This document shows positions 351 through 48,534 of a stretch of DNA of 48,551 bases, piece after piece. Source of the stretch: Steroidobacter sp. (lineage in GTDB: Bacteria; Pseudomonadota; Gammaproteobacteria; Steroidobacterales; Steroidobacteraceae); contig JAICPY010000024.1 of assembly GCA_025929585.1 (NCBI GenBank), positions 1-48,551 on the forward strand, written 5' to 3'. Below the pieces are notes generated by a model. It was not told the DNA's origin, did no database searches, and saw only the letters and a list, made by a program, of their open reading frames with translations. Within the stretch, counting starts at the first letter, position 1. Each line of letters opens with the position of its first letter. The translations under genes and the position numbers were made by a program.

Positions 351-513
351 GGTTGACGGTTGACGGTTGGCGGTTGACGGCCAGAACAAGCGGCGATTTG
401 CAGCAGCAACTGACGTCCCAGCCTGATGATTGCTCGTGTCTTTCAAGAAGCCTGGTTCAGCAAAACCTCAAGCGGATTTTTCTGACCGTCAACCGCCAAC
501 GGTCAACCGTCAA
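351..513. repeat. Inverted heptamer array, GTTGACG family, in the phoB leader
   Basis: The left arm (352-380) holds four GTTGACG-type units (third unit GTTGGCG). The right arm (485-513) is its reverse complement with one mismatch in 29 bp. The loop is 104 bp. The element lies wholly between the predicted phoB transcription start and the start codon at 530, so it would be part of the phoB mRNA leader. Confidence 0.9.
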
Positions 514-529
514 CGCGTAAGCCAACCCT

Positions 530-1225
530 ATGCCCTCAAAGCAGATCTTGATCGTCGAGGACGAACGGCCGATTCGCGAGATGATTGCGTTTGGACTTCG
601 GCGCGGAGGCTACGAGGTGCGGGAAGCATCCGATGTCGGTGAGGCTCGATCGAGCATCGCGAATCACCGTCCCGATCTGGTGCTGATCGACTGGATGCTG
701 CCGGACATGAGTGGCTTGGAGCTGACGCGCGCGATCAAGCGCGATAAAGAAACACAAGACGTGCCCGTCATCATGCTCACCGCTCGATCGGAGGAGCAGG
801 ATAAAGTCATCGGGCTCGACAGCGGCGCGGACGATTACATCACCAAGCCCTTCTCGCCGCGGGAGTTGCTCGCGCGTATTAACGCAGTATTGCGGCGCTC
901 CAACAATGGTCAAGACGCCGATGTGATTGAAGCCGAAGGTCTGGTGCTCGATGCCGCGGGTCATCGCGTTACCGCCGGCGATCAAACGGTGCAACTGGGT
1001 CCCACCGAATATCGGTTATTGTCGTTCTTCATGACCCATGCCGAGCGGGTGTACAGTCGCGCTCAGCTCTTGGATCGCGTGTGGGGCGGCAACGTTTATG
1101 TCGAAGAAAGAACCGTGGATGTGCACATTCGACGCCTGCGCAAGGCGCTCGAGGCGTTCAACTACGATCGTTTCATTCAAACCGTTCGCGGATCCGGATA
1201 TCGCTTCTCCACGCGCGCGGAGTAA
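530..1225 (+). CDS. phoB: Phosphate regulon response regulator PhoB
   Basis: This is a 231-residue OmpR/PhoB-class regulator. The receiver domain (about 5-120) has the acidic pocket E10-D11, phospho-acceptor D54, T84 and K106 in an ITKPF motif. The C-terminal winged-helix domain (about 135-230) ends with the usual RGSGYRF motif. The protein is phosphorylated by PhoR when phosphate is scarce and binds Pho boxes. The stop lies 3 nt before phoR, so the two genes form one operon. The start codon has no clear Shine-Dalgarno sequence; the C-rich arm of a heptamer array ends 16 nt before it. Identity as PhoB rather than another OmpR-type regulator rests on the phoR partner, the pst genes and the Pho boxes in the window. 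Confidence 0.95.
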   Translation: MPSKQILIVEDERPIREMIAFGLRRGGYEVREASDVGEARSSIANHRPDLVLIDWMLPDMSGLELTRAIKRDKETQDVPVIMLTARSEEQDKVIGLDSGADDYITKPFSPRELLARINAVLRRSNNGQDADVIEAEGLVLDAAGHRVTAGDQTVQLGPTEYRLLSFFMTHAERVYSRAQLLDRVWGGNVYVEERTVDVHIRRLRKALEAFNYDRFIQTVRGSGYRFSTRAE

Positions 1226-1228
1226 CGC

Positions 1229-2566
1229 ATGAAGTTGCCGGCCGTACTCTCTACGATCGGTTGGCAGGCGGCATATCGACTCGCGGCGGCCCTGCTCGCG
1301 GCGCTGATCTTGGGTCTAATCACCGGCCGCATGGCGCTCTGCTTCGCCATCGTGCTCGGCATGTATGCTTTTTTCCAGAATTGGAATCTGTCTCGCCTCG
1401 AGCGGTGGCTGCGCTTGCGTCGCGTTCAGCCACCGCCCGATATCAGCGGCCCCTGGGGCGAGGTCGTTGCAATCGTGAGCCGTATTTATCGGCGCAAGCA
1501 ATATCACCGGTCCCGAGTCACGGAACTGCTGCGCGAATTTCGCCGCCTGACCAGTGCAATGCCGGAAGGTGCGGTATTGCTCGGCCCTGAACACGAAATT
1601 CTGTGGTTCAACGGGCGCGCAGGGGAGTGGCTTGGATTACGGCGCAAACGGGACTTCGGAATTCGAATCGCGAATTTGGTACGCCATCCGGATTTCGTGG
1701 AATATCTGCAAACCGGCACGCCTGCCAGTGGCGTTGTGGTGCACGAGCCCGCAGCCTCCGGTGGACGGTGGTTTTCATTCCATATCGTTCGCAGCGACAC
1801 GGGTGTTCGCCAGCTGCTCATCGTGCGAGATGTGAGTCGCGAGCAGCAGCTCGAATCGATGCGCAAGGACTTCGTTGCGAACGCATCGCACGAGCTACGC
1901 TCGCCTCTGACCGTGATCAGCGGGTATTTGGATGCGCTGGCAGACGATGAAAAGCTCGATGCGACTTGGAGCTCGCCGGTCCTGGAGATGCGACGCCAAG
2001 CCGAGCGCATGGGCACCATCATCAATGATCTGCTGGAGTTGTCGAAACTGGAATCCGGAGACACTCCGAAGGATGATCAGCCTGTAGATATTGCGGGCCT
2101 GCTGGCGTTGCTCCGCAAAGAGGTGCTGCAGTCTGAGCACCGCCCCGAGCATGTGAACTTGAAGCTCGACAGCGATGCCCTGCTGCTAGGCTCGGAATCC
2201 GAGTTGCATTCCATCTTTTCCAACCTCGTGTCTAACGCCGTGAAGTACACGCCTGAAAATGGCGAGATAGAGATGCGTTGGTGGACGGATGAAGACGGTG
2301 GTCACTTGTCGGTACGCGACACAGGGGTCGGTATCGCGCGCGAACACATTCCTCGCTTGACCGAGCGCTTCTATCGTGTTGATCCCGGCCGTGCTCGAAG
2401 CATGGGTGGGTCCGGGTTGGGCTTGGCTATCGTCAAGCATGCATTACAACGTCATGGTGGTTCTCTGCGCATCAAAAGCAGAGAAGGCGTGGGAAGTACC
2501 TTCACCTGCGACTTTCCCCGTGAACGCATCTTGTCGCGAGACTCGAAAGCAACTGCTGTGAGCTAG
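1229..2566 (+). CDS. phoR: Phosphate regulon sensor histidine kinase PhoR
   Basis: This 445-residue membrane kinase has two hydrophobic segments at about 15-33 and 35-50, a PAS-type region (about 100-200) and a HisKA domain whose SHELRSPL motif places the phosphorylated histidine at residue 221. The ATPase domain has an N box (NLVSNAVKYTP), a G1 box (DTGVGI) and a G2 box (GGSGLGLAIVKH). It lacks a large periplasmic sensor, as expected for PhoR, which senses phosphate through the Pst transporter and PhoU. It follows phoB by 3 nt. Downstream come palindromic repeats and no typical T-rich terminator. Confidence 0.95.
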   Translation: MKLPAVLSTIGWQAAYRLAAALLAALILGLITGRMALCFAIVLGMYAFFQNWNLSRLERWLRLRRVQPPPDISGPWGEVVAIVSRIYRRKQYHRSRVTELLREFRRLTSAMPEGAVLLGPEHEILWFNGRAGEWLGLRRKRDFGIRIANLVRHPDFVEYLQTGTPASGVVVHEPAASGGRWFSFHIVRSDTGVRQLLIVRDVSREQQLESMRKDFVANASHELRSPLTVISGYLDALADDEKLDATWSSPVLEMRRQAERMGTIINDLLELSKLESGDTPKDDQPVDIAGLLALLRKEVLQSEHRPEHVNLKLDSDALLLGSESELHSIFSNLVSNAVKYTPENGEIEMRWWTDEDGGHLSVRDTGVGIAREHIPRLTERFYRVDPGRARSMGGSGLGLAIVKHALQRHGGSLRIKSREGVGSTFTCDFPRERILSRDSKATAVS

Positions 2567-2568
2567 CT

Positions 2569-2709
2569 TGGGGACGCTCCTCGTCCCCGAGGAGTGTCCC
2601 CTCACCCCACCGAAGAGTAAGGCCCCTGTTCGGGGATATTCCTCGTCTTCGAGGAACATCCGCTCAGAAAGAAGAGGGGGACACTCCTCGAAGACGAGGA
2701 GCGTCCCCA
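2569..2709. repeat. Triple palindromic (REP-like) repeat after phoR
   Basis: Three related hairpins follow one another at 2570-2601, 2634-2661 and 2677-2708. Each is a 12-14 bp stem around a 4-nt loop, centred on CTCCTCG/CGAGGAG and ending in GGGGAC/GTCCCC in the outer two. The outer copies also form a 36-bp inverted repeat with each other. No transposase of the RayT type is in the window. The element could protect or end the phoBR transcript, but there is no T tract. Confidence 0.85.
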
Positions 2710-2729
2710 GGAAGACGAGGACCCCCAGC

Positions 2730-2758
2730 GCGTAACGTTTCCGTCATCATCCTGTCTC
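2730..2758 (+). promoter_or_regulatory. Triple half-site Pho box upstream of the lipoprotein gene
   Basis: Three 7-bp half-sites, GCGTAAC (2730-2736), CCGTCAT (2741-2747) and CTGTCTC (2752-2758), are each separated by exactly 4 bp, giving the 11-bp helical phasing of PhoB boxes. A weak -10 (CATACT, 2774-2779) follows. The site lies about 135 bp before the lipoprotein start and suggests that this gene, and probably the receptor after it, belongs to the Pho regulon. Confidence 0.65.
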
Positions 2759-2893
2759 CGAGTTGTAAGACAACATACTTACTTTACGCCCACAAGAAGG
2801 CGGCTCTGCCTGAAGAGGCAAGCAGCATCGAATGCGACGCGGTCATGTCCGCGTTTACGAAACATTCATTCAACTGTGTGGGAGATCGACTCG

Positions 2894-4585: not shown

Positions 4586-4614
4586 TCGATCGCGACATCA
4601 CACCGTGACGCGAA

Positions 4615-4646
4615 GGCGAGAGCACCTCGATCGAAGTGCTCTCGCC
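4615..4646 (+). other. Intercistronic hairpin between the lipoprotein and receptor genes
   Basis: A perfect 11-bp inverted repeat (GGCGAGAGCAC at 4615-4625, GTGCTCTCGCC at 4636-4646) encloses a 10-nt loop that is itself mostly TCGATCGA-like. No T tract follows, so it is more likely an mRNA-stability or partial-termination hairpin than a full terminator. Confidence 0.6.
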
Positions 4647-11058: not shown

Positions 11059-11168
11059 GCGTGCAGACGTGCAGAGGTGAAGGACGTGTGGACGTAAGAT
11101 AGAGACGGATTGGCTCCGCTTCTCGCGTCTACACATTTACACATCTACACGTTTGCACGTCTACACGC
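11059..11168. repeat. Inverted octamer array between porin and phoU
   Basis: The right arm (11126-11168) has five 8-bp units of the GTCTACAC/ATTTACAC type. The left arm (11059-11094) has degenerate complementary units such as GTGCAGAC and GTGTGGAC. The loop is about 31 bp. It has the same architecture as the heptamer arrays but an 8-bp unit. Confidence 0.75.
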
Positions 11169-11231: not shown

Positions 11232-11975
11232 ATGGAAAAATCTGACCTGTCCCATCACATCCTCAGCCGCTACAACGATGACTTGGAGCGGGTGCGCACG
11301 AACGTGCTGCAGATGGGGGGCTTCGTAGAGGAGCAATTGAGTCAAGCGGTCGAAGCCCTTGTGCAAGGCGACAGTCGTTTGGGCGAGCAGGTCGCTCGTG
11401 GCGATGCGAAGGTCAACGCGATGGAGGTTGCGATCGATGACGATTGCAGCCGCATCCTTGCGACGCGCAGTCCGGCTGCTTCCGACTTGAGATTGATTGT
11501 AGCGGTGATCAAGACGATCACCGATTTAGAACGCATCGGCGATGAGGCCGAGAAGATCGGTTACATCGGTTCGAGGCTCGCAGCGGTCGAGCGTCCCGCT
11601 GACCGCTATCGCGAGTTGAAGCACCTGGGCAGGATCGTCGGCGACATCCTGCACGAAGCTCTGGATGCTTTCGCGCGTCTCGATCCTGAAGCGGCGGTTG
11701 CGGTTGCGAAGAAGGATCGGCTGGTCGATGAGGAGTATGAAGCGATTCAGCGTCAGTGCATCACGTTCATGATGGAGGATCCGCGAACGATCCGCCGCGC
11801 GTTGGATGTACTTTGGGTGGCGCGAGCGTTGGAGCGCATTGGCGACCACGCGAAGAACGTTTGCGAGTACGTCGTATATATGGTCTACGGCAAGGACATT
11901 CGCCACTTGTCTATGGAAGACGTCGAGAAACATGTGCAGACTCGTTCTCAACGCGGCCAGACGCCGGCGTCTTGA
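11232..11975 (+). CDS. phoU: Phosphate signalling protein PhoU (first copy)
   Basis: This 247-residue all-helical protein has two PhoU three-helix repeats (about 20-110 and 125-215). They carry the acidic motifs DLERIGDEAEKI and ALERIGDHAKNVCEYV that bind metal in PhoU proteins. PhoU couples the Pst transporter to PhoR and restrains PhoR when phosphate is plentiful. This copy sits after the porin and away from pst; a second phoU (18341-19051) follows pstB. No Pho box is seen between the porin and this gene, so it may be read from the porin promoter or its own promoter. Confidence 0.93.
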   Translation: MEKSDLSHHILSRYNDDLERVRTNVLQMGGFVEEQLSQAVEALVQGDSRLGEQVARGDAKVNAMEVAIDDDCSRILATRSPAASDLRLIVAVIKTITDLERIGDEAEKIGYIGSRLAAVERPADRYRELKHLGRIVGDILHEALDAFARLDPEAAVAVAKKDRLVDEEYEAIQRQCITFMMEDPRTIRRALDVLWVARALERIGDHAKNVCEYVVYMVYGKDIRHLSMEDVEKHVQTRSQRGQTPAS

Positions 11976-12001
11976 TGCCGCTCATTGAGTGGCATGTGAT
12001 A

Positions 12002-12080
12002 GTTGACGGTTGACCGTTGACCGTTGACAGTAAGAGGCGTGTTTTATCGGACCGTCAACTGTCAACCGTCAACTGTCAAC
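12002..12080. repeat. Inverted heptamer array, GTTGACG family, before dsbB
   Basis: The left arm (12002-12029) has four GTTGACG/GTTGACC units. The right arm (12052-12080) has four CCGTCAA/CTGTCAA units. The loop is about 22 bp. It is the same unit family as the array before phoB. The right arm ends 11 nt before the dsbB start codon. Confidence 0.9.
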
Positions 12081-12091
12081 GCCTCCTCTAT

Positions 12092-12607
12092 ATGAATCTT
12101 CCTTTCGGTCGTCGGCTCGGCAACGCGCTTGGGTTTCTCGCGTGCGCCGCATTGATAGGCTATGCGCTTTATGCGGAGCATGTGCTTGGGCTGCCACCGT
12201 GCCCCTTATGTATCTTTCAGCGCGTTGCCGTCATCGCGATCGGCGTGCTGTTTCTGATCGCGACCCTTCACAATCCAGGCCGCACAGGATCGCGGGTTTA
12301 TGGGTCACTGATTGCAATCGCCGGCATTTGCGGAATCGCCATTGCGGCCCGGCACATCTGGATCCAGGCGCAACCGCCGGGCTCGGTGGCCGCATGCGGT
12401 GCGGATCTCGATTATCTGATGGAGATCATGCCGCTCACGGAAGTCGTCTCCAAAGTCCTCACCGGCTCGGGTGAATGCGGCACCATCGATTGGACGTTTC
12501 TGGGCTTGTCGATGCCGTGGTGGGTAGCAGCCGCGCTAGCGGCGCTCGTCACGTTCGCGTTATTGGTGAATGTAGCACGACAACCGAACGACGGAGGAAG
12601 GGGATAA
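12092..12607 (+). CDS. dsbB: Disulfide bond formation protein B
   Basis: This 171-residue inner-membrane protein with four hydrophobic segments reoxidises DsbA and passes electrons to quinone. The quinone-side pair is C37-P-L-C40, and the second periplasmic loop has C102 and C129. These are the four essential cysteines of DsbB. The ATG at 12092 is chosen over an in-frame start at 12017 because the upstream extension would be translated from the heptamer array and homology begins at MNLPFGRR. There is no Shine-Dalgarno; CCTCCT, which resembles an anti-SD, lies just before the start. The TAA stop lies in the next array. Confidence 0.93.
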   Translation: MNLPFGRRLGNALGFLACAALIGYALYAEHVLGLPPCPLCIFQRVAVIAIGVLFLIATLHNPGRTGSRVYGSLIAIAGICGIAIAARHIWIQAQPPGSVAACGADLDYLMEIMPLTEVVSKVLTGSGECGTIDWTFLGLSMPWWVAAALAALVTFALLVNVARQPNDGGRG

Positions 12608-12754
12608 TGATTAGGAGTAGGGGGTAGTAAGAGCGGAAGAGGGTATTGATTAGAGGTAGTAAGAAATGATTAAAGGTAGAAGAAGAACGGGAAAGGATCG
12701 CGGCGATGCCTCTCTTTGCCTTACTACCCCCTACCCCCTAATCATTACCCCCTA
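12603..12754. repeat. Inverted array, GGGGGTA family, between convergent dsbB and dapE
   Basis: The left arm (12603-12633) reads as GGGGGTA/GATTAGG-type units, and the right arm (12719-12754) is its near-perfect complement over about 33 bp. Extra degenerate copies (GATTAGAGGTAG, ATGATTAAAGGTAG) lie in the 85-bp loop. Both convergent genes end inside the arms: the dsbB TAA (12605-12607) and the dapE TAA (12747-12745). Confidence 0.9.
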
Positions 12755-15133: not shown

Positions 15134-15272
15134 GTGACGGGTGACGGGTGACGAGTGACGGGAAAGAAGGCGATTCGTTGAGGCTCCTGCGCGGCACAGA
15201 CCGGGTTTGCGGATTTGCCACAGATGAGCAGAGCGCTCCTTCCCGTCACTCGTCACCGGTCACCCGTCACCC
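15134..15272. repeat. Inverted heptamer array, GTGACGG family, between pstS and pstC
   Basis: The left arm (15134-15163) has four GTGACGG/GTGACGA units then GAA. The right arm (15240-15272) is its reverse complement with one mismatch over about 30 bp. The loop is about 76 bp. About 100 bp without features remain before pstC; a small GCCTGGCC/GGGCTAGGC hairpin lies near 15315-15341. Confidence 0.9.
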
Positions 15273-15374
15273 GCGGGTCGACGATGACTGCCCGACCAAG
15301 TAAAGTTCGCCCCGCCTGGCCGAGGCATCCTGGGCTAGGCATCAATACCGTGCACGAAATGTAAAGTTGTCTGC

Positions 15375-18340: not shown

Positions 18341-19051
18341 ATGCCCGATCCCCTCGAAGGCCACACAGCTAAAGCTCTCGATGGAGCGCTTGCCGAGCTG
18401 CGCCTGCGCGCAGTTTCGATGGGCGGTTTGGTCATCGATCAAGTATCTACATCTATCCGCGCACTACTCGAAGGGGATGCGACGCTTGCGCAATTGGTGA
18501 TCTCACGCGAAGCACGGGTCAACGATCTCGAGCGCACGGTTGATCGAGACGCCTTCGAGCTCATAGCGCTGCATCAGCCCGTCGCAGGCGATCTGCGCAT
18601 GGCAAAGGCCGTGTCGCGCATCACGGTGGAGCTAGAAAGGGCGGGGGACGAATCCAAGAAGATCGCGAAGTTCGCTGCGCGTCTCGCGACGGGTGAGCCG
18701 CAAGGTCCGGTGCACGCTGTCGCGCGCTACCTGCGTCACATGGCCACTCTGACGACCGGAATGTTGCGAGATGCGGTGCGTGCTTTGGATGAAGCCGACA
18801 GCCCAATGGCGCAAAGCGTGACTGCTCGCGACTCCGAGCTCGACGCCGAATTCGCCGCTGCGCTTCGTCAACTGCTGACACTGGCCATGCAGGATCAGCG
18901 ATTCCTAGGCGCCACGATCGACACCGTGTTCGCGCTGAAAGGTCTGGAGCGAATCGGCGATCACGCAAAGAACATCGCGGAGCAAGTGGTATTCGTCGCA
19001 AGCGGTGAGGATGTGAGGCATCGGCGGAAAAGAGTGACGAGTGACGAGTGA
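18341..19051 (+). CDS. phoU: Phosphate signalling protein PhoU (second copy)
   Basis: This 236-residue two-repeat helical protein has the motifs ELERAGDESKKIAKF and GLERIGDHAKNIAEQV. It follows pstB, the usual position of phoU. It is clearly related to, but well diverged from, the copy at 11232-11975, which suggests an old duplication or separate origins. The last five codons and the TGA stop (19049-19051) are made from the first GTGACGA units of the next array, so the C-terminal VTSDE is repeat-encoded. Confidence 0.92.
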   Translation: MPDPLEGHTAKALDGALAELRLRAVSMGGLVIDQVSTSIRALLEGDATLAQLVISREARVNDLERTVDRDAFELIALHQPVAGDLRMAKAVSRITVELERAGDESKKIAKFAARLATGEPQGPVHAVARYLRHMATLTTGMLRDAVRALDEADSPMAQSVTARDSELDAEFAAALRQLLTLAMQDQRFLGATIDTVFALKGLERIGDHAKNIAEQVVFVASGEDVRHRRKRVTSDE

Positions 19052-19168
19052 CGAGTGACGGGTGACGGGCAAGATGATTATGAAACTCGACCCCGCCTCG
19101 CAGCTCACGCCTGCAGATCTGAGTACCTACAGAGTCGTCTTCTTGCTCGTCACCCGTCACCTGTCACT
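19032..19168. repeat. Inverted heptamer array, GTGACGG family, between convergent phoU and dapD
   Basis: The left arm (19032-19072) has about six GTGACGA/GTGACGG units. The right arm (19143-19168) has three CCGTCAC-type units. The loop is about 70 bp. The stop codons of both neighbours, phoU (TGA 19049-19051) and dapD (TGA, 19166-19164), lie in the arms. Confidence 0.9.
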
Positions 19169-19979
19169 CTCTCAGTAGCTCGTTGATCCCCACCTTCGAT
19201 CGCGTCTGCGCATCGACGCGCTTTACGATTACGGCGCAATACAGACTATATTTTCCGTTTGCCGCAGGAAGGGAACCTGACACGACGACGGCGCCGGCCG
19301 GTACGCGGCCGTACGAGACCTCGTCGCGCTCGCGGTCGTAGATGCGGGTACTTGCGCCGATAAAGACGCCCATAGAGATGACCGCGCCTTCTTCGACGAT
19401 CACTCCCTCGACGATTTCCGAACGCGCCCCGATGAAGCAGTTGTCCTCGATGATCGTCGGACTCGCTTGCAACGGCTCGAGCACGCCGCCAATGCCTACA
19501 CCGCCTGATAAGTGAACGTTGCGACCGATCTGCGCGCATGAACCGACTGTGGCCCAGGTGTCCACCATCGTGCCTTGGCCGACGTAAGCACCGATATTCA
19601 CGTAAGAGGGCATCAAGACTGTGTTCGACGCAACATATGCTCCCCGGCGAACGATAGCGTGAGGAACGACGCGCACACCTTCGGCACGAAGACGCGCTTC
19701 ATCGTAGCCGGCGTACTTGAGAGGGACTTTGTCGAAGAACTGCGTGTAACCCGCATCCACTACCTGATTGTCGTTCAGTCGAAACGACAGCAACACGGCC
19801 TTCTTCAGCCATTGATTGACCTGCCACTTCCCATCGACCTTTTCCGCAACGCGCGCTTTACCCGCGTCGAGCAAACCTATCGCTTCGTTGACGGCGTCGC
19901 GCACATCGGCTGGTGCGTTCTTAGGACTGAATTCGCTGCGACGTTCGAAGGCGGAATCGATGAGGGATTGCAGAGGCAT
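19164..19979 (-). CDS. dapD: Tetrahydrodipicolinate N-succinyltransferase DapD
   Basis: This 271-residue enzyme transfers succinate from succinyl-CoA to tetrahydrodipicolinate in lysine/diaminopimelate synthesis. The C-terminal two-thirds is a left-handed beta-helix of hexapeptide repeats ([43 protein letters not shown]). It is last in the minus-strand group map-glnD-dapC-dapD. The start codon follows directly after a CCGTCAC array with no Shine-Dalgarno, and the stop codon is inside the next array. Confidence 0.95.
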
Positions 19980-20093
19980 GGTGACGGAGTGACGGGTGAC
20001 GAGTGACGGGGCAGAGAGTTTAGCGTGTGGCGGCTATCCCTGCTTTCCTTCTCGTCCTGTCTTGCCCGTCACCCGTTACTTGTCACCCGTCAC
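19980..20093. repeat. Inverted heptamer array, GTGACGG family, between dapC and dapD
   Basis: The plus-strand left arm (19980-20011) has four GTGACGG/GTGACGA units. The right arm (20061-20093) has four inverted units, one changed to CCGTTAC. The loop is about 49 bp. Read on the minus strand, the first arm supplies the dapC stop (TGA, 20092-20090) and the second arm ends against the dapD start codon. Confidence 0.9.
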
Positions 20094-21277
20094 CTGCCCG
20101 CGACATAGTCGCGAATCCTTCCCGCCGCTTCCACGCATTCGGCTTGGTTGGCAACTAGAGAGATTCTCACTCGACCGCGGCCAGGATTTCCTTGCGCGGT
20201 ATCGCGTGAGAGATAGCTTCCCGGCAGGACCGTCACGTGTTTGCGCTCGAACAATTCGCGAGTGAAGCGCTCGTCATCAGGCACGGTTGGCCATAGATAA
20301 AAGCTCGCGTCCGGTGCCTCGATGGGAAGCGCTTCGCGCAGGATCGGCAGGACGGCCGCGAACTTATTGCGATAGAGCTTGCGGTTCTCGATGACATGAG
20401 CATCGTCGTTCCACAAAGGAATGCTGACGAGCTGAGTGTGAATCGGCATCGCACAGCCGTGATAAGTGCGGTACAGCAAGAAGGCTTTGATGACGGAAGG
20501 GTCGCCCGAGACGAATCCTGATCGCAATCCGGGCACGCTCGATCGTTTGGATAAGCTATGAAATACGACGCACCGCTCGAAACGAGTGTGACCGGCGGCG
20601 ATCGCTGCTTGCAGTAAGCCTGGCGGTGGATTCGCCTCATCGAGGTAGATCTCGCTGTAACACTCGTCCGAGGCAACCAAGAAATCGAATCGCTCGGCAA
20701 GCTCGATGGCGCGACGTAGATAACGCACGTCCGCGACCGCTCCGGTGGGATTGCCTGGCGAACACAGAAACAGCAACTGGCAGCGACGCCACACCTCGGC
20801 GGGGACGCTATCGAGATCCGCGAGCAGAGTCTTGCTGTTTGCCATGAAGTAGGGCTCAGCGCCCGCAAGCAGAGCCGCGCCTTCATAGATTTGATAGAAC
20901 GGGTTTGGCATAGCCACCACGGGGGACTGCTTGGCATCGACCACAGATTGGGCGAATGCGAACAATGCCTCTCGAGTGCCATTCACAGGCAAGACCATCG
21001 TTTCCGCATCGAGGGTGCCGGCGGGCAGGTTGAAGCGGCGAGTGAGCCAGTCGGCAACGGCAACTCGAAACGCAGGCAAGCCCAACGTTGCGGGATAGTT
21101 GCCTAGCGTCTGGAGATTTTTCGTGAACTCTTCCAGCACGATTCGAGGTGCTGGATGGCGAGGCTCGCCGATCGACATCGAGATTGGGTTCAGCGCCGCC
21201 GGTGGTGCAGCGCCAGCAAGGAGCGCGCGCAGGCGCTCGAACGGATACGGCCGCAACTGCCCAAGCAATGAATTCAT
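20090..21277 (-). CDS. dapC: Succinyldiaminopimelate aminotransferase DapC
   Basis: This 395-residue fold-type I PLP aminotransferase has a GTREALFAF region near the cofactor phosphate, CSPGNPTGAV, DECYSEIY, and the PLP lysine in FHSLSKRSSVPGLRSG. DapC converts N-succinyl-2-amino-6-ketopimelate to succinyl-diaminopimelate. The assignment as DapC rather than another class I aminotransferase rests on its place between glnD and dapD. Its ATG overlaps the glnD stop by 4 nt. The stop is in the following array. Confidence 0.9.
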   Translation of the reverse strand: MNSLLGQLRPYPFERLRALLAGAAPPAALNPISMSIGEPRHPAPRIVLEEFTKNLQTLGNYPATLGLPAFRVAVADWLTRRFNLPAGTLDAETMVLPVNGTREALFAFAQSVVDAKQSPVVAMPNPFYQIYEGAALLAGAEPYFMANSKTLLADLDSVPAEVWRRCQLLFLCSPGNPTGAVADVRYLRRAIELAERFDFLVASDECYSEIYLDEANPPPGLLQAAIAAGHTRFERCVVFHSLSKRSSVPGLRSGFVSGDPSVIKAFLLYRTYHGCAMPIHTQLVSIPLWNDDAHVIENRKLYRNKFAAVLPILREALPIEAPDASFYLWPTVPDDERFTRELFERKHVTVLPGSYLSRDTAQGNPGRGRVRISLVANQAECVEAAGRIRDYVAGR

Positions 21278-27961: not shown

Positions 27962-28017
27962 GAAGGGGATAGCGGATAGGGGATAGGGAGGCTATCTCTT
28001 TATCGCCTATCGCCTTC
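27962..28017. repeat. Inverted heptamer array, GGGGATA family, between pyrH and frr
   Basis: The left arm (about 27962-27986, three GGGATAG-type units) pairs with 27993-28017 (TATCGCC units). The loop is very short and AGGAGG-like bases separate the arms. It ends just before the frr Shine-Dalgarno. The same unit family occurs before lpxA and between the SUI1 gene and yceI. Confidence 0.8.
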
Positions 28018-28587: not shown

Positions 28588-28597
28588 AGGAAGAGAA

Positions 28598-28626
28598 GCG
28601 GTTGGCGGTTAGCGGTTAGCGGTTAG
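28598..28626 (+). repeat. Solo heptamer arm, GGTTAGC family, between frr and uppS
   Basis: Four units (GGTTGGC then GGTTAGC, GGTTAGC, GGTTAG) lie in tandem with no inverted partner in the 135 bp before uppS. The matching inverted arm of this family occurs at 45965-46010. This may be half of an element whose second arm was lost. Confidence 0.8.
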
Positions 28627-37305: not shown

Positions 37306-37791
37306 ATGGAACAACAAATGACCGAAATCTTGAAAATGGATATCAACGAGGTGATGCGCAGGTTGCCGCATCGCTATCCGTTCCTGCTCGTGGATCGCGT
37401 GCTGGAATGTGAGTCTGGCAAGTCGATACGCGCGTTGAAGAACGTGACTTTCAATGAACCCTTTTTCCCAGGGCATTTCCCTCATCGCCCGGTGCTACCC
37501 GGCGTGATCATTTTGGAAGCCCTTGCTCAGACCGCCGGCATCCTCGCGTTCGTCACCGCGGGTGTCTATCCCGACGAACATCGCCAGCTTTATTTTGTCG
37601 GCATCGACAAGGCCCGCTTTCGCCGCCCGGTTTTGCCGGGTGATCAACTGATTCTCAAGGCCACGCTCGAACGTTCACTGCGCGGCATCTGGAAATTTTC
37701 CACGACCGCTGAAGTTGAAGGCGAGGAGGCCACCAGCGCCGAGATGATGGTGGCGCCAGGGGAAACGAAGGGGATAGGGGATAGGGGATAG
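37306..37791 (+). CDS. fabZ: 3-hydroxyacyl-ACP dehydratase FabZ
   Basis: This 161-residue hot-dog-fold dehydratase of fatty acid synthesis has catalytic H57 and E71 in [21 protein letters not shown]-type sequence. An in-frame ATG at 37318 is an alternative start and gives 157 residues. The last seven residues (KGIGDRG) and the TAG stop are encoded by the GGGGATA array, so the natural C-terminus appears to have been replaced or extended by repeat DNA. Confidence 0.95.
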
Positions 37792-37879
37792 GGGATGGTC
37801 AGAACCCATTCGCAGCCCGATCGAGCCTCTGCGCGTTCATTTCGTACTATCGCCCATCGCCTATCCGCTATCGCCTTCT
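37769..37879. repeat. Inverted heptamer array, GGGGATA family, between fabZ and lpxA
   Basis: The left arm (37769-37798) has four GGGGATA units. The right arm (37847-37879) has inverted TATCGCC/TATCCGC units. The loop is about 48 bp. The four G4 tracts spaced by ATA also fit a G-quadruplex. The right arm ends 9 nt before the lpxA start codon. Confidence 0.9.
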
Positions 37880-38734: not shown

Positions 38735-39922
38735 GTGGCAAACGGTTCGGGTCCACTTTTCGTTCTGGTGGCGGGGGAAACCTCGGGTGACAACCTAGGC
38801 GCACAGCTCATCGAGGCACTTCGTGCGCGCATCCCGAATGCACGCTTCGCAGGCATTGCAGGCCCTCGCATGATCGCGGCTGGTTGTGAGCCGTGGGAAC
38901 AGGCCGAGAATCTAGCTGTCATGGGGTTGTTCGAAATCATTCCCCATTTGCCGCGATTGCTTGCCATTCGGCGGGCGCTGATCGCACGCGTCTTGCAGGA
39001 ACGGCCGGACGTTTACATCGGCATCGATGCCAAGGAATTCAATCTTCGCGCCGCGCCTGAGATCAAGGCGGCCGGGATTCGAACCGTGCAGTACGTGAGT
39101 CCGCAAATCTGGGCGTGGCGACAAGGCCGAGTGCGAACCATCGGTGCTGCGGTCGACCTGGTCCTATGTTTGCTTCCGTTCGAGAAACGTTTTTATGACG
39201 AGCACGGGGTGCCGGCTGAGTTCGTCGGGCACCCTCTCGCAGATCGAACCCCGATGCATCTGGATGCCACTGCAGCGCGAATGCAGCTCGGTCTTCCGAC
39301 TGCGGGCACTTACGTCGCCTTGTTGCCCGGAAGCCGCCTCGCTGAAGTAAAAGGCCTGGGATCTGATTTCGCAAGGACGGTCGTTTGGTTGCGCGCTCAG
39401 AAGAGGGAATTGAAGTTCATCGCAGCGCTTGCGACACCGCGAGTGCGTGAAAGCTTCGAGCAAGCACTCGCCGCGGCGGGGCTGACCGGAGAGGTCACTC
39501 TGGTCGACGGCAGAGCGCAAGAAGTGATGGCGGCGAGCGATGTCGTGCTGCTCGCCTCGGGCACGGCGACTCTCGAAGCTTTGCTCGTAAAGCGTCCGAT
39601 GGTTGTCGCATATCGCTTAGGCTTGCTGACAAGTTTCCTGCTTAAGGGTCTGAAAGTCTTCAAGGCGCCTTTCTTCGCTCAGCCTAATCTCTTGGCCGGG
39701 CGTCAGGTTGTTCCCGAGTTCCTCAACAACCAAGTGCGCGCGGAGATACTCGGTCCGGCACTCTTGCAACAACTCTCCCGTGCGGATCGGGCAGAGCTAG
39801 TGCAAACTTTCAGCTCAATTCATGAGACGCTTCGGCGCAACGCGAGCGCGCGAGCCGCGGAAGCCGTCTTGCGATTGGTGAATAGCGGACGGCGGACGGC
39901 GGACGGTGAGGACTCAGAGTGA
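38735..39922 (+). CDS. lpxB: Lipid-A-disaccharide synthase LpxB
   Basis: The 395-residue GT-B glycosyltransferase joins two acylated glucosamines to the lipid A disaccharide. Motifs are [45 protein letters not shown] and [21 protein letters not shown]. The start is a GTG after a 57-nt gap. The C-terminal residues ([10 protein letters not shown]) are read through the left arm of a GGACGGC array, a unit that contains no stop codon in any frame. Confidence 0.95.
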
Positions 39923-40017
39923 AACAGAGTTGGTAGTGAGCATCGCGGAATCAGACATGATCGACGATCGCGCACATCAATCGTCAGAGTCTCCGGTTCT
40001 CCACCGTCCGCCGTCCG
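39885..40017. repeat. Inverted heptamer array, GGACGGC family, inside the lpxB end and rnhB start
   Basis: The left arm (39885-39915) has three to four GGACGGC units then TGAGGACTC. The right arm (39987-40017) carries GAGTCTCC...CCGTCCGCCGTCCG. The loop is about 71 bp. Unlike the other arrays, both arms are within coding sequence: the left encodes the lpxB tail and the right encodes the rnhB N-terminal extension. Confidence 0.85.
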
Positions 40018-40667
40018 AGACTGAAAGGAATCCCGCGAGGACCGTCCCCCATTCACCACTCGTAGCTGGCGTCGACGAGGCGGGGCGCGGACCGCTCGCG
40101 GGACCGGTCGTTGCAGCGGCGGTCATTCTGGATCCACGTCGGCGTATTCGTGGCGTGCGCGATTCGAAAGTGGTCGATCCCGAGGAACGCGAAGTGTTGG
40201 CGCTCAAGATTCGGCGCAATGCAATCGCGTGGTCGGTCGCTTGGGCGGATGTGGAAGAGATCGACACGCACAACATCTTGCAAGCAACTTACCTGGCGAT
40301 GCGTCGAGCCCTTGTTGGCTTGCACATCCATCCTGCTCACGTCCAAATCGATGGCAATCGCTGCCCTTCATTCGAGGAGTTGCCGCTTACGTGCAGCTTC
40401 GAAGCGATCATCGACGGTGATGCTTTGCGCACTTGCATCGGTGCCGCTTCCATCCTGGCAAAGGTGACGCGTGATGCAATGATGGTGCGGCTCGATGAGC
40501 TATACCCACAATATGGTTTCGCCTCTCACAAGGGTTACAGCACACCGCAACATTACGAAGCCCTCGATCGTCACGGCCCATGCGCGATTCACCGTAAGAG
40601 CTTCGAGCCAGTACGTCTCGCTACGCGCGGCGAGCTGATCGCCTCGCAGTTGACCGTTGACGGTTGA
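39957..40667 (+). CDS. rnhB: Ribonuclease HII
   Basis: This 236-residue enzyme cuts RNA in RNA-DNA hybrids. The active-site motif [19 protein letters not shown] and later acidic residues ([22 protein letters not shown] region) are intact. The catalytic domain begins about 30 residues after ATG 39957. There is no closer ATG, GTG or TTG, so the protein must carry an N-terminal extension, part of which comes from the right arm of the GGACGGC array. A longer frame from 39906 is possible. The last residues (LTVDG) and the TGA stop come from the next array. Confidence 0.9.
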
Positions 40668-40708
40668 CAGTACGAACGCGGAATACAAACTCACCGTCAC
40701 CCGTCACG
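40649..40708. repeat. Mixed-family inverted array between rnhB and dnaE
   Basis: The left arm (40649-40670) has three GTTGACG-type units, while the right arm (40691-40708) has CCGTCAC units of the GTGACGG family. The arms still pair roughly because the families share TGACGG. The loop is about 20 bp. It appears to combine two families. The right arm ends 9 nt before the dnaE ATG. Confidence 0.75.
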
Positions 40709-40717
40709 CAACGCCGA

Positions 40718-44245: not shown

Positions 44246-44330
44246 AGACTGCAGTCTATAGTCCGCAGTCCGCAGCAAGAGCCTTGCGACTCTGTCTACA
44301 GACCACGGACTGTGGACTCAAGACTCAGCT
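44246..44330. repeat. Inverted heptamer array, AGTCCGC family, between convergent dnaE and yceI
   Basis: The left arm (44246-44275) has AGTCTAT, AGTCCGC and AGTCCGC units. The right arm (44292-44330) has inverted GAGTCTT, GAGTCCA, CAGTCCG-type units. The loop is short and contains GCAAGAGCCTTGC (44275-44287). This is the most degenerate of the paired arrays. Confidence 0.75.
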
Positions 44331-44331
44331 C

Positions 44332-44940: not shown

Positions 44941-44959
44941 CGTGGGTCCTTATAAAAGG

Positions 44960-45052
44960 GAAGGGGATAGGGGATAGGGGATAGGGGATAGGGGATAGTC
45001 GGAGCAGAGCCAACTCTGCCGAAGGTATTTATGGCTATCCGCTGTCGCCTTC
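44960..45052. repeat. Inverted heptamer array, GGGGATA family, between the SUI1 gene and yceI
   Basis: The left arm (44960-44998) has five GGGGATA units. The right arm is shorter (45034-45052, about two and a half inverted units). The loop of about 35 bp contains a perfect GCAGAG/CTCTGC hairpin (45004-45019). The arm lengths are unequal, so unit number appears to change independently on each side. Confidence 0.88.
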
Positions 45053-45064
45053 AAAATCGTCTTG

Positions 45065-45445
45065 CTAGCCTCCAGCGCGTTTGGCCTTCCAACCGCGGCG
45101 GAGTAGTTCCTCAACGAGGCGATCTCTGTGATCGCCCTGGATCTCGATGCGTCCATCGGCCACAGCGCCGCCGGACCCGCACTTTTTCTTGAGCTCGGTC
45201 GCGAGCGATTCCAATTGCGCAAGCGGCAGGCCAAGACCCGAGACTACAGTTACACCTTTGCCTTTGCGACCTTGTGTCTCGCGGCTGACACGCACCACAC
45301 CGTCGCTCGAGGGCTTTGCAGGAGTGCCTTTCTTGCAGACACACTCCCGCACAACGCGCAAGCAATTCGGACAACGCTCGCCGATGCCGGTCGAATAAAC
45401 GATTCCGCCGCCATCACTGGGCGGCCGATTACGAGTGGATGCCAT
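45065..45445 (-). CDS. yciH: SUI1/YciH-type translation initiation protein
   Basis: This 126-residue protein has an N-terminal zinc-ribbon-like cysteine set (C25, C28, C35, C37) followed by a SUI1/eIF1 fold (about 45-122, with GKGVTVVSGL and the C-terminal HRDRLVEELLRRG). YciH is thought to restrain or proofread initiation under stress. The cysteine cluster before the SUI1 domain is common in proteobacterial YciH. It precedes yceI on the minus strand across an array. Confidence 0.9.
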   Translation of the reverse strand: MASTRNRPPSDGGGIVYSTGIGERCPNCLRVVRECVCKKGTPAKPSSDGVVRVSRETQGRKGKGVTVVSGLGLPLAQLESLATELKKKCGSGGAVADGRIEIQGDHRDRLVEELLRRGWKAKRAGG

Positions 45446-45508
45446 CGGATCAGTGTACCAGGGCTCTTCGTGAGCGCCGGCTGCCTGCGCAAATCGCGCA
45501 CAAGCAAA

Positions 45509-45533
45509 CGGCGCCCGACATTATCGGACGCCG
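45509..45533 (-). terminator. Hairpin upstream of the SUI1 gene (minus strand)
   Basis: CGGCGCCCGA (45509-45518) and TCGGACGCCG (45524-45533) form a 10-bp stem with one mismatch and a 5-nt loop. On the minus strand it is followed by TTTG. It is a possible second terminator behind the one at 45552-45575. Confidence 0.5.
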
Positions 45534-45551
45534 CTTCAGTCTAGTCTGCTT

Positions 45552-45575
45552 AAAAGCGTTAACTCAGGTTAACGC
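45552..45575 (-). terminator. Rho-independent terminator after the 76-residue gene (minus strand)
   Basis: GCGTTAAC (45556-45563) and GTTAACGC (45568-45575) form a perfect 8-bp stem with a 4-nt loop. On the minus strand it is followed by TTTTA. It ends the gene at 45610-45840. Confidence 0.75.
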
Positions 45576-45609
45576 ACGAGATTCGGCCAGCGTGGATCAG
45601 CAGCACCGA

Positions 45610-45840
45610 TCAACTCGATTTGGACGAATCGCGAATTTCTTGCGGGTCGTGTTCCTTTGCCCGCTCCTTCGCCTTGTTCTCGGCGCTGCGAATTTCCTGC
45701 TCTTCTTCGCTGCTGACATCGCCTGCGTGCTGGATTTCTTCCTGCCCGCGTTCGGATTGCACGAAATTGCGAGTCGCTTCGCGATAATTGCGATCGGCCG
45801 TCTTGTTGCCTTCGCCTTCGTTGCGCGGGGTCGTGCCCAT
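45610..45840 (-). CDS. Small hydrophilic conserved-type protein
   Basis: This 76-residue, highly charged protein without cysteine or membrane segment starts MGTTPRNEGEGNKTADRNYRE. The phrase NEGEGNKTADRNYREATRNFV is familiar to me from small proteins of unknown function in proteobacteria. GAGGAG lies before the ATG on the minus strand and a good terminator follows, which supports a real gene. I cannot assign a function; its composition suggests a disordered or stress-type protein. Confidence 0.75.
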   Translation of the reverse strand: MGTTPRNEGEGNKTADRNYREATRNFVQSERGQEEIQHAGDVSSEEEQEIRSAENKAKERAKEHDPQEIRDSSKSS

Positions 45841-45925
45841 GTGTTTGCTCCTCTCGTCAGTGACCCAACAGAACGCGTAGGCGCTGATCGGGTTCCAGGA
45901 TGCTCTAGGAGAGAGGCCGTTACGA

Positions 45926-46010
45926 TGAGTGGTTAGACGGAAGAAAGCGCAGCAGCGCCTCTGATCTAACCACTAACCGCGAACCCAACCGCCAACCGCT
46001 AACCGCTTCC
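45926..46010. repeat. Inverted heptamer array, GGTTAGC family, upstream of the 184-residue gene
   Basis: The right arm (45965-46010) has about six CTAACCG/CCAACCG units. The left arm (45926-45942) keeps only about two. The loop is about 22 bp with GCGC/GCGC. It belongs to the family of the solo arm at 28598-28626. Confidence 0.8.
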
Positions 46011-46034
46011 TCCCTGTGCGGTTATGCTGCGCGC

Positions 46035-46589
46035 ATGTACTGGATCCTCGCTGCTCTATTTCTGTTGGTGATGCTCGCCGTGCCGCGCTTGCGCCCTGTT
46101 GCGGTCATTGGTTGTGTGATTCTCGGAGGCATGCTGCTGTGGGGTGTGTTCGAGCGCGTGCGGGGAACCGATCCCGATAATCAGCCGGAAAGAGGGCGAC
46201 CGACGACGCCGGCGGCGATGTCACAAGCACTGCCGCCGGAGGATCTCGAGCTTGTCGGGCTGAGGTTGTCCGGTGGGGGCGCGCCGTTCAGGTTGACCGG
46301 GGAGGTGATGAACCGGTCTTCGAATCTCAGGCTCAAATCGTTCATGCTCGATATTAGGCGACGCGACTGCTACGAGGGTGCGCTGGATCCGAGCGGCTGC
46401 GTCGTGCTTTGGGGTGTGAGGCAGTGGATCGAGTTGGCCGTGCCGCCGCAGCAAACGCGAGAGTTTGCAATTTCGATTTGGGCGCGTGGCGATGCTCCGC
46501 GTGCCGTTGGCACACTTCGCGATGACTTCAAAGTTGTGACAGCGAGCGGCGAGCCGGGGACGAGCAGCGGCGCTGCCATCGAGCGATGA
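46035..46589 (+). CDS. Membrane-anchored protein with FxLYD-like domain
   Basis: The 184-residue protein has two hydrophobic segments (about 1-16 and 21-38). A periplasmic domain (about 72-165) contains LTGEVMNRSSNLRLKSFMLDI, resembling the G-x-V-x-N-x-S pattern of FxLYD-type beta-sandwich domains. Two cysteines (about 115 and 122) may form a disulfide. There is no clear Shine-Dalgarno. The function is unknown. A GC hairpin (46593-46615) follows the stop. Confidence 0.7.
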   Translation: MYWILAALFLLVMLAVPRLRPVAVIGCVILGGMLLWGVFERVRGTDPDNQPERGRPTTPAAMSQALPPEDLELVGLRLSGGGAPFRLTGEVMNRSSNLRLKSFMLDIRRRDCYEGALDPSGCVVLWGVRQWIELAVPPQQTREFAISIWARGDAPRAVGTLRDDFKVVTASGEPGTSSGAAIER

Positions 46590-46592
46590 TGA

Positions 46593-46615
46593 ATGCCGCT
46601 TGAGTTATGCGGCAT
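46593..46615 (+). other. Hairpin after the FxLYD-like gene
   Basis: ATGCCGC (46593-46599) and GCGGCAT (46609-46615) form a 7-bp stem with a 9-nt loop. No T tract follows, so termination is uncertain. Confidence 0.4.
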
Positions 46616-46638
46616 GTTGGCGGTGGACCGTTGACAGG
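46616..46638 (+). repeat. Remnant of a GTTGACG-family arm
   Basis: About three degenerate units (GTTGGCG, GTGGACC, GTTGACA) occur without a clear inverted partner; only weak traces (CAACTGCGAACGTC) appear about 35 bp later. It is probably a decayed array. Confidence 0.5.
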
Positions 46639-46775
46639 GAACGGGGCGCGCTTCTCTGACAGCTAATATCAACTGCGAACGTCTACTGTGTGCCATTCAT
46701 GATTAGAATCCATCACACATCCGCATGGCCATGATGGCGACGAAATTCCACTCACACCAGCCATAGAACTGCCCC

Positions 46776-47369
46776 GTGCACATAGCGCTACCGTATCTGA
46801 TTGCCGGCTGGTCTGGCTTCTTCGTTATGGCCGTCGAGTTGCTCGGCGGACGACTGCTCGCACCCACATTCGGCAGCAGCATTTACGTCTGGGGCGCGAT
46901 CATCACTGTGTTCATGCTCGCGTTGTCGCTCGGCTATTTGGCTGGCGGAAGATGGTCGACACAACACCCTAGTGTCCGCCGCTTGGGCGTATTGTTGATC
47001 GCCGCAGCCGCGACCGTGGCTCCCATCCTGTTTGCAGGAGAGTGGCTGCTCGAGTCGGTCGCGGTGCTCGTACCGGACCCGCGGTTTGGTTCCTTGCTTG
47101 CGGCCCTCGCCTTGTTCTTCGTGCCAACTTTCTTCTCTGGCATGGTCTCCCCTTATGCGGTGCGTTTGCTCGTGCGCGATCGTGCAACTTCGGGACGACA
47201 TGCAGGTCAATTGTATTTCGTTTCCACTTTCGGCAGTGCCGCTGGAACCTTGCTGACCTCGTTCTACCTTGTACTGCTAATGCAGGTGAATCATATTTTG
47301 CTGGCACTGATGAGCATCTCGGTGCTCTTGGGTGTGAGCGCATATGCAATGAGGGGTCCAGCTACGTGA
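46776..47369 (+). CDS. Six-TM membrane protein, N-terminal half of a fused MFS/spermidine-synthase type
   Basis: This 197-residue protein of about six membrane segments begins IALPYLIAGWSGFFVMAVELLGGRLLAP. I recognise that sequence as the membrane half of proteins annotated as fused MFS/spermidine synthase, which also have GxxSPYAVRLL and LYFVSTFGSAAGTL. Here it is a separate protein, and its TGA overlaps the GTG start of the spermidine-synthase-like gene. The start is GTG with no strong Shine-Dalgarno. Export or channelling of a small molecule has been suggested for such fusions but is not established. Confidence 0.85.
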   Translation: MHIALPYLIAGWSGFFVMAVELLGGRLLAPTFGSSIYVWGAIITVFMLALSLGYLAGGRWSTQHPSVRRLGVLLIAAAATVAPILFAGEWLLESVAVLVPDPRFGSLLAALALFFVPTFFSGMVSPYAVRLLVRDRATSGRHAGQLYFVSTFGSAAGTLLTSFYLVLLMQVNHILLALMSISVLLGVSAYAMRGPAT

Positions 47370-48295
47370 TTGCGATGCTTTCATTCCTCGAGCGCACATC
47401 TTGGCTTCGCAAGTCGCTACCACTTGCGTTGGTAGTTGGCCTGTTCTCGTGCGCAAGTCACGCGCAAAGCATGAAGCTCGTTCATTCCGAGAAGTCGCTG
47501 TATCGGGATGTGCTGGTCTATGAGAGAGCGGGCGAAAGATGTATGTGCTTTACGCGAAACTGCCGCATCGGCCGGCAGTCGTGCATGGACATCAAGAATC
47601 CTCTGCGCGTCGTGATGAACTATCCGCAGATGATGCTCGGTTCGCTGTTCGTCAAGCCGCAACCTCAATCGATCCTCGTCATCGGTTTAGGCGGAGGCAC
47701 GCTTCCGCAAGCGCTTACTCGCTTCGTGCCGAACGCGCGCATTGATGTGGTGGAAATCGATCCAGCGGTGATTCGGGTAGCAAAGCGCTATTTCGGCTTC
47801 GTCGAGCGCCCGAACGTCCGCGCGATCGCCATGGATGGGCGCGTCTATGTCAAGCAAGCGTTGCGCCAGCAACGGCGCTACGACCTGATTATGCTCGATG
47901 CTTTCGATCACGAGTACATTCCCGAGCACCTACTCACGAAGGAATTCTTGCAGGAGGTCGACAGCCTCCTTGCTCCCGGTGGCGTGCTGGCGGCAAACAC
48001 TTTTTCCTCCAGTCGCCTCTACGATCATGAATCGGTGACTTACGCCGCGGTCTTTGCCAGGTTCTATAACCTCAAACGCGACAATCGCATCATCATAGCC
48101 GTGAATGGCGAGCTGCCTTCCACAGCCACATTACGCGCCAATAGCCGTCGATTCGAATCGGGGTTTCGTCAATTCGGCATCGCGACATCTCGCCTTCTGC
48201 CGTTGTTTACAACCGAAGCGGACTGGAGCCGCGATGCTCGCGTATTGACGGATCAGTATTCACCGGCGAACTTGCTGAACCTAGGAAGCGAGTGA
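47366..48295 (+). CDS. Spermidine-synthase-like methyltransferase-fold protein with signal peptide
   Basis: The 309-residue protein has a predicted signal peptide (about 1-34, ending SHA-QS) and a Rossmann domain with LVIGLGGGTLPQAL, VVEIDPAVI (acidic E130/D132), MDGRVYV and LIMLDAFDHEYIP. It lacks the D-S-S-D-P motif of true spermidine synthases, so a real polyamine synthase activity is doubtful. Four cysteines (C59, C61, C66, C73) precede the Rossmann fold and could bind metal or form disulfides. GAGGGG 9 nt upstream supports the GTG at 47366; ATG 47375 is an alternative. Confidence 0.8.
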   Translation: MIAMLSFLERTSWLRKSLPLALVVGLFSCASHAQSMKLVHSEKSLYRDVLVYERAGERCMCFTRNCRIGRQSCMDIKNPLRVVMNYPQMMLGSLFVKPQPQSILVIGLGGGTLPQALTRFVPNARIDVVEIDPAVIRVAKRYFGFVERPNVRAIAMDGRVYVKQALRQQRRYDLIMLDAFDHEYIPEHLLTKEFLQEVDSLLAPGGVLAANTFSSSRLYDHESVTYAAVFARFYNLKRDNRIIIAVNGELPSTATLRANSRRFESGFRQFGIATSRLLPLFTTEADWSRDARVLTDQYSPANLLNLGSE

Positions 48296-48534
48296 GAATC
48301 GGGAATCGGGAATCGGGAATCGGGAATCGGGAATCGGGAATCGGGAATCGGGAATCGGGAATCGGGAATCGGGAATCGGAGAAGCAAGAGAAGCCTTGCA
48401 AAACTACTTGACGCTGGGTGGAGCGACGGAACCATCATCTCGCCGACTCCCGACTCCCGACTCCCGACTCCCGACTCCCGACTCCCGACTCCCGACTCCC
48501 GACTCCCGACTCCCGACTCCCGACTCCCGACTCC
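48296..48534. repeat. Long inverted heptamer array, GGGAATC / GACTCCC
   Basis: The left arm has 11 perfect GGGAATC units (48301-48377) plus a partial one. The right arm has 12 perfect GACTCCC units (48445-48528) plus a partial one. The loop is 67 bp and includes GCAAGAG...CCTTGC. Every left unit differs from the complement of every right unit at the same base (A versus G at position 5). It is the longest array in the window and starts directly after the stop of the preceding gene. Confidence 0.95.

Follow-up and report, generated by a model that had tools for sequence, protein, structure and literature searches.

The window, as we call the whole stretch of 48,551 nucleotides analysed here (Steroidobacter sp., contig JAICPY010000024.1, our C111, in a draft genome of 5.13 Mb and 297 contigs, G000), carries sixteen paired elements, each a tandem array of short G-rich units followed, after a loop, by an inverted C-rich array. 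The reading we favor, with about even confidence, is that they belong to dispersed repeat families in which what is copied is one arm, about 30-40 nt long, and not the loop. From its outer, purine-rich end such an arm commonly runs through four G-rich heptamers (8- or 9-mers in some families) to an inner end that often reads YMRGA; its copies would settle in small intergenic gaps, mostly as two inverted arms of the same family with their G-rich strands facing, around an uncopied loop. The arrays are real, are abundant in the sampled genome, and are patchy between lineages. Heptamer arrays in bacteria have so far been ascribed to slippage or to G-quadruplexes, both views being quoted in the available part of a study of Xanthomonas (PMC4692102). 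Arms that recur without their loops, together with differences of unit word at orthologous gaps, separate the copied unit (the arm) from the architecture (the pair). The interesting part is the route by which two arms of one family would come to lie face to face around a loop that is not copied.

Arrays, arms and loops in the sampled genome

Arrays were sought with a finder of our own (periods 6-10, score 10), with order-3 Markov copies as the control. It reports 21 arrays in the window, against 0-2 (mean 0.6) in 20 Markov copies, and the arrays listed by a first-pass annotation of this DNA were recovered by Tandem Repeats Finder (TRF) and then checked by direct reading. The genome sample, comprising the window and 40 further stretches of G000 (810,059 bases, 15.8% of the genome), contains 229 arrays, 192 of them intergenic, against 9 over all positions in the Markov control; "intergenic" rests on crude gene calls from home-made scripts, and array density in the sample may run somewhat high because contigs were picked by GGGGATA or GGGTGAC matches. 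(Reversed GGGGATA is unusable as a control word, being a shift of GGGGATA itself.) With 192 intergenic arrays in such a sample, the elements are not rare outside the window. Contigs C38, C44 and C46 of G000 start inside or near GGGTGAC arrays, so array counts may be too low if the assembly tends to break at these sites.

Period 7 accounts for 146 of the 192 intergenic arrays, period 8 for 32, period 9 for 13 and period 6 for one; the period-8 and period-9 families also recur across the genome. Polarity is strongly one-sided. A partner scoring at least 12, the value required for calling a pair, lies on the inner side (G-rich first, C-rich second) of 119 arrays, on the outer side of 4, and in the flank of another locus for 8. 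This gives 86 pairs, with 63 of the 192 arms counted as solo (partner score below 10) and 10 arms between the two thresholds.

Four units is the mode of the period-7 arrays (77/146), as would be expected if four G tracts were kept for G-quadruplex (G4) folding, and words such as GGGGATA and GGGAATC do have G tracts able to form a G4. The same mode, though, is found in words without GGG (GTTGAC, 12/17; GGTTAGC/GGTTGGC, 13/19), while in GTGAC, a GGG-bearing word, three units are commonest (12/26, with four units in 6). A G4 requirement was rejected as the general cause of the four-unit mode, since GG-only words have it too, and we consider G4 elements a highly improbable account of the arrays.

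Arms recur as ordered units. Among the 141 arms listed, words return at many loci with variant units in the same order, and an exact 21-mer is common to 60 pairs among 54 heterogeneous arms, against a mean of 38 and a maximum of 56 in 200 shufflings of the units; the same variant order across loci indicates that arms were copied as units. The inner end YMRGA ([CT][ACT][AG]GA, within about ten bases) is present in 109/172 arms, against 20/172 for shuffled loops, and is common to different arm families. Purines prevail in the outer flanks (A at -1 in 91/172, G at -2 in 83/172).

These results bear directly on the interpretation given in the first-pass annotation, that short local words are copied or expanded as inverted pairs and that no sequence spreads. 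As a mechanism, every inverted array would be generated on the spot, out of local words, by replication slippage and template switching. Two observations are in keeping with it: the arms at 48296-48534 differ by a single fixed base in every unit, so that each arm was homogenised and expanded separately, and 7-mers are favored, as in the slippage idea quoted in the available part of PMC4692102. Against it stand the recurrence of identical arms, their variant units in unchanged order, across many loci, the common inner motif, and the presence of the same words in a sister genome. Local origin as the main source is largely refuted, and we hold it to be very unlikely. The description of the unit words as unrelated was likewise too strong, as several window words (read from the word list) lie one base apart, in the series GGTTAGC-GGATAGC-GGATAGG-GGCGATA and GGTTGAC-GGTTGGC-GGTTAGC.

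At paired positions, the two arms of one element match at 0.904, and arms from different elements of one family at 0.890. By family, the within-element and between-element values are 0.891 and 0.855 (GGGGATA-type), 0.905 and 0.880 (GTGAC), 0.920 and 0.902 (GTTGAC), 0.926 and 0.909 (GGTTAGC), 0.971 and 0.971 (GGGGGTA) and 0.835 and 0.813 (period 9); period 8 gives 0.904 and 0.647, this set being a mixture of families. Conservation is higher in paired arms (0.967, n = 76) than in solo arms (0.930, n = 39; p = 0.018). No long-range pair of solo arms around a gene, as an autonomous copy might present, occurs in the 15.8% sample. A GC-rich period-8 family, CGCAGCGG (L094:6322, L094:19535, L098:10114 and L246:5010), has near-identical arms lying 50-324 nt from stop codons in convergent gaps, unlike most others, and is probably a different element.

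Loops, by comparison, are unrelated. They range from 18 to 165 nt (median 56) across the 86 pairs, and an all-versus-all comparison yields only five matches, of 12-19 bases, and no loop family. Sixty-four pairs of elements share an exact 26-mer in the arm (including 6-8 flanking bases); in the 44 of these with loops long enough to compare, the best local loop score has a mean of 7.6, against 6.9 when shuffled, and a maximum of 13, against 11. Since loops are not shared, the families do not spread as full-length copies that include them, and to this extent the first-pass annotation was right. Loop folding is unremarkable (mean z of -0.08 for 68 loops, against -0.40 in array-free intergenic pieces), and on this basis the loops were rejected as structured RNA. 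One loop contains a terminator-like hairpin. Nested arms, of the same or another family, are present in the loops at L092:11734, L253:6980 and L099:5812, and a loop of the relative G008 (L142:326-490) contains a nested inverted repeat of the CATTCCCGCG...GGGAATCCA type.

The absence of shared loops is also a difficulty for a model based on REPINs (hairpin-forming doublets of repetitive extragenic palindromes, REPs), in which the whole arm-loop-arm hairpin would replicate through a REP-associated tyrosine transposase (RAYT) of the Y1 type acting in trans, with loops diverging fast. Paired arms do outnumber solo ones (119 against 63 of 192) and are better conserved, the elements are intergenic, and the genome encodes one Y1 transposase (Y1_Tnp), RAYT-like by its look. 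But loops are unrelated even between elements with exact 26-mer arms, and their range of 18-165 nt contrasts with the 71-bp spacing given for GI REPINs in the accessible part of PMC3116915, where three sequence groups are reported in the genome studied. Moreover, the transposase gene does not track the arrays: it occurs in 6 of 14 genomes of the genus, 4 of those 6 without the tested array word, none was found in the array-bearing genome G007 (75% complete), and the 3.3-kb locus of the gene in G000 contains no heptamer array. We judge a REPIN-like origin unlikely. As far as the available accounts go, REPINs and bacterial interspersed mosaic elements (BIMEs) are similarly intergenic inverted doublets with more decayed singlets; they differ in a set spacing, a less conserved spacer and a link to RAYTs, and REPIN arms are not tandem arrays. 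Here the spacer is not part of a replicating unit, the spacing is not set, and no RAYT association is seen.

The reverse transcriptase domain RVT_1 is absent from the array-bearing G008, so a resident RVT_1 is not required for arrays, and the single copy in G000 has an internal stop. Y1 transposase and reverse transcriptase were both rejected as agents, as their presence does not follow the arrays in the genus. A bacterial telomerase-like reverse transcriptase has reportedly been described in a preprint (PMC12632851). On either side of the RAYT-like gene L179:997-1869 lie long direct repeats with a GAAGCCCCCTTCCAGGGGG-type palindrome.

Placement beside genes and in orthologous gaps

Distances and orientations of neighboring genes were taken from codon-model gene calls. 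Both neighbors are available for 81 of the 86 pairs (5 lie at edges), with 55 pairs in co-directional, 20 in convergent and 6 in divergent gaps; sample gaps of at least 40 nt number 280, 84 and 100, respectively. Divergent gaps are therefore depleted (6/81 pairs against 100/464 gaps, Fisher p = 0.002). The distance is at most 35 nt on the stop side in 81/95 cases, and at most 25 nt on the start side in 33/67. For those 33 starts, a 4-mer resembling the Shine-Dalgarno (SD) sequence precedes the start only once, against 187/571 array-free genes (p = 7e-5); such a 4-mer is found just outside the far arm in 11/33, against 46/222 near stop codons (p = 0.12). The simplest reading would be that elements entered small gaps, some of them between an SD sequence and its start.

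The same placement could suggest elements selected at the RNA level, such as terminators, 3'-end stabilisers, RNase III sites or devices that bridge SD sequence and start. Arms at stop codons, the scarcity in divergent gaps, and the SD-like 4-mer found in 1/33 before a close start and in 11/33 on the far side of the element are all in its favor. Selection for an mRNA hairpin, though, predicts more G.U pairs than A.C mismatches on the sense strand, and the counts are 43 and 46 (p = 0.83), with 18 elements going one way, 19 the other and 18 tied; there is no sign of RNA-hairpin selection. Pairing within elements is hardly above that of random same-family arms (0.904 against 0.890), 63/192 arms are solo, and 11/33 is not clearly above 46/222. 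A selected RNA hairpin or intrinsic terminator was rejected on the wobble counts, and we regard an RNA-level account in general as rather improbable. Stop codons and gene ends sit within arms at window positions 19032-19169, 37791 and 40667, and several unit words contain TGA or TAG.

By its GlnD relatives, G000 falls in the Steroidobacteraceae, close to Steroidobacter. Distribution among relatives is uneven. Sampled stretches hold 34 intergenic arrays in 400 kb of G008 and one in 278 kb of 14 other relatives; the sister genome G030 has 84 in 267 kb, an inflated figure, most contigs having been chosen for matches, and G013, sampled apart, has 2 in 100 kb at score 12. (G007 and G030 are the same genome, judged by contig coordinates.) The query (GGGTGAC)3 with at most 2 mismatches gives 219+258 overlapping matches in G000, 42+14 in G008 and 3 in G007, and none in 11 other genomes of the genus. 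With (GGGTGAC)4 and at most 1 mismatch, 6/369 genomes of the class have matches, G000 included; the others are G115, G118, G292, G387 and G395, of which G292 and G387 belong to the same genus and have several loci with GGGAGAC variants. Arrays of GTTGAC, GGGGATA, GGTTAGC and GGACGGC are also present in the sister genome, and in the relatives examined, among them Steroidobacter gossypii and Peristeroidobacter soli, the orthologous gaps contain few arrays. The origin of heptamer arrays, left open by the Xanthomonas work, becomes testable in a genus with array-rich and, as sampled, nearly array-free genomes.

Comparison of 38 orthologous gaps between G000 and G030 finds both occupied in 6, G000 only in 9, G030 only in 2, and neither in 21 (odds ratio for co-occupancy 7, p = 0.04; short operon gaps contribute). 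The word differs in 4 of the 6 co-occupied gaps (27955, 37791, L090:16724 and L090:19254) and is the same or near in 2 (12607 and L090:6352). A constant plan with a variable word, as first proposed from the window, thus holds both within the genome and at orthologous gaps. Gaps read by eye (sub-threshold or outside the tabulated set) show another word in G030 at L090:5415, 10762 and 15688, at L253:6970 and at window 15122 (decayed in G030), the same word at 39905, and an empty gap at 11947, 28583, 45852, L090:13578 and 14380. Gap 11975-12092 resembles a clean empty site (flanks of 26+11 nt in G000, a gap of 37 nt in G030), as does L090:14390 (flanks -11, G030 -10).

Possible origins and known systems

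Copying of single arms would call for an active process, perhaps templated insertion or a transposase in trans, whose agent was not found. A pair might arise from one event, e.g. an arm copy added to both ends of a break that are then joined; slippage may afterwards lengthen or shorten arms, and selection against damage to genes and divergent promoters would set where elements remain. In a more specific and frankly speculative version, to which we attach a low probability, the pair would be a scar: where a small gap was broken, the 3' ends at either side would each receive a copy of a G-rich arm of fixed length before filler DNA joined them. This would be a bacterial counterpart of head-to-head telomere-type fusion or of foldback formation, and a single genome would have several template words in use.

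Several points weigh against arm copying with an uncopied loop. No mobilising enzyme was found, Y1_Tnp and RVT_1 being those sought, and no target-site duplication is visible between G000 and G030, where non-genic sequence is hardly alignable. The period-8 CGCAGCGG family behaves differently from the other arm families, and co-occupancy of orthologous gaps may partly reflect which gaps tolerate inserts. A search for loop donors with 59 loop cores against the 16% sample gives 50 non-self matches, of which three loops with nested arms account for 36; the 14 further matches compare with 1 for base-shuffled loops, 12 of them spanning 14-26 bases and two spanning 33 and 46 bases at about 80%. We read this as no clear loop donor within the sample, though with an excess over the shuffle. 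The loop could be native spacer or new DNA. Gap lengths in G000 and G030 favor a new loop in 6 of 11 testable elements; the call is unsafe for 37769, one of the six, and for L253:6980, one of the other five, as an array is present at these places in G030. Fast decay of loops between constrained arms is a less probable alternative.

The closest known system is the GGGAATC heptamers of Xanthomonas (Rehm et al. 2015, PMC4692102). In the available part of that account they are intergenic, have a four-unit mode, lie near stop and start codons with few in divergent gaps, and number 186 in Xcc, with two close sites in convergent orientation in 70 cases in Xcc and 75 in Xac; dnaE is named among the associated genes, four units are linked to G-quadruplexes, the slippage idea is quoted, and function is left open. 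Tandem G-rich heptamers, four-unit mode, intergenic position, placement at gene ends, scarcity in divergent gaps and convergent inverted pairs (here 119/192, against 4 of the other polarity) are all shared, and GGGAATC itself is one window word. The first-pass annotation, which mentions such arrays in Lysobacter-like genomes, was right in kind, the published case being that of Xanthomonas. The differences are that Xanthomonas has one type of word and the present genome many, the GGAATC group (GGGANTN) making up only 4/146 of the period-7 arrays; that the GG-only words found here are at odds with a G4 reading; and that no inner motif, loop comparison or analysis of arm families appears in the available part of the Xanthomonas account.

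In form, the elements resemble miniature foldback elements. Foldback (FB-type) transposons have inverted repeats with tandem subrepeats around a middle domain variable in composition and size (PMC4079207, as far as available), and the present elements likewise consist of inverted repeats, built of tandem subrepeats, that enclose a non-homologous middle. Foldback elements are, as described there, eukaryotic, far longer and bounded by target-site duplications, and the present elements have no transposase link. The TAACTGA heptamers of Beggiatoaceae are likewise dispersed, intergenic and beside genes; they differ in being direct repeats of a single word, with one inverted case among 170 sets in the accessible part of PMC4679880. 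CRISPR and attC arrays differ in architecture by inspection. The short tandemly repeated repetitive (STRR) heptamers of cyanobacteria are dispersed intergenic heptamers adjoining genes. No multi-word inverted heptamer system was found in the literature, as covered by titles and the starts of abstracts with most subscription journals outside.

Elements in the window

We count sixteen pairs (Table 1), the number also given in the first-pass annotation, each with its G-rich arm first. The two solo arms of that annotation become one or two, namely 28597-28626 and a decayed GTTGAC arm near 46620, as the supposed solo arm at 40649 has a GTGAC partner. Its statement that nearly every gap is occupied was an overstatement, the figure being about 17 of some 40 gaps. 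Ten of the 16 pairs pass the strict pair score and the remaining 6 were inspected singly: 12607 scores well once the query is lengthened, for 40649, 44256 and 44962 the scores are 8.5-10.5, the wrong side giving 3.5-6; and 27964 and 45928 were called by reading, their scores being barely or not above those of the wrong side.

Table 1. Paired elements and solo arm in the window, with arm positions, loop lengths (nt) and basis of the call.
Feature	Position	Strand	Arms and loop	Basis or comparison
Element GTTGACG	351..514	.	351-380 / 485-514, loop 104	TRF + finder
Element, 8-mer GTGTAGAC	11060..11167	.	11060-11089 / 11130-11167, loop 40	TRF + finder
Element GTTGACC	12002..12080	.	12002-12028 / 12054-12080, loop 25	Absent from G030 gap
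Element, GGGGGTA family	12607..12752	.	about 12607-12631 / about 12720-12752	Reading + score
Element GTGACGG	15134..15273	.	15134-15160 / 15244-15273, loop 83	Finder
Element, 9-mer GTGATGAAA	18241..18339	.	loop 25	TRF + finder
Element GAGTGAC	19032..19169	.	arms overlap both convergent gene ends	Reading + finder
Element GTGACGG	19980..20094	.	loop about 54-65	TRF + finder
Element GGGGATA	27964..28015	.	right arm weak	Reading; G030 same gap: GGTTAGC array
Solo arm GGTTAGC	28597..28626	+		TRF
Element GGGGATA	37769..37876	.		Finder; G030 same gap: GGCGGAC pair
Element GGACGGC	39885..40017	.		Finder; G030 gap holds same word
Mixed-word pair	40649..40706	.	GTTGAC arm, GTGAC partner 40693-40706	Single inspection
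Element AGTCCGC	44256..44318	.	weak pair	Single inspection
Element GGGGATA	44962..45050	.	weak right arm 45035-45050	TRF + single inspection
Element GGTTAGC	45928..46007	.	weak left arm 45928-45936	Reading; not called in G030
Element 12 x GGGAATC against 13 x GGGAGTC	48296..48534	.		TRF + reading

The arrays at window 40649-40706 and at L140:11976-12003 (G008) lie just before a gene whose start resembles that of dnaE.

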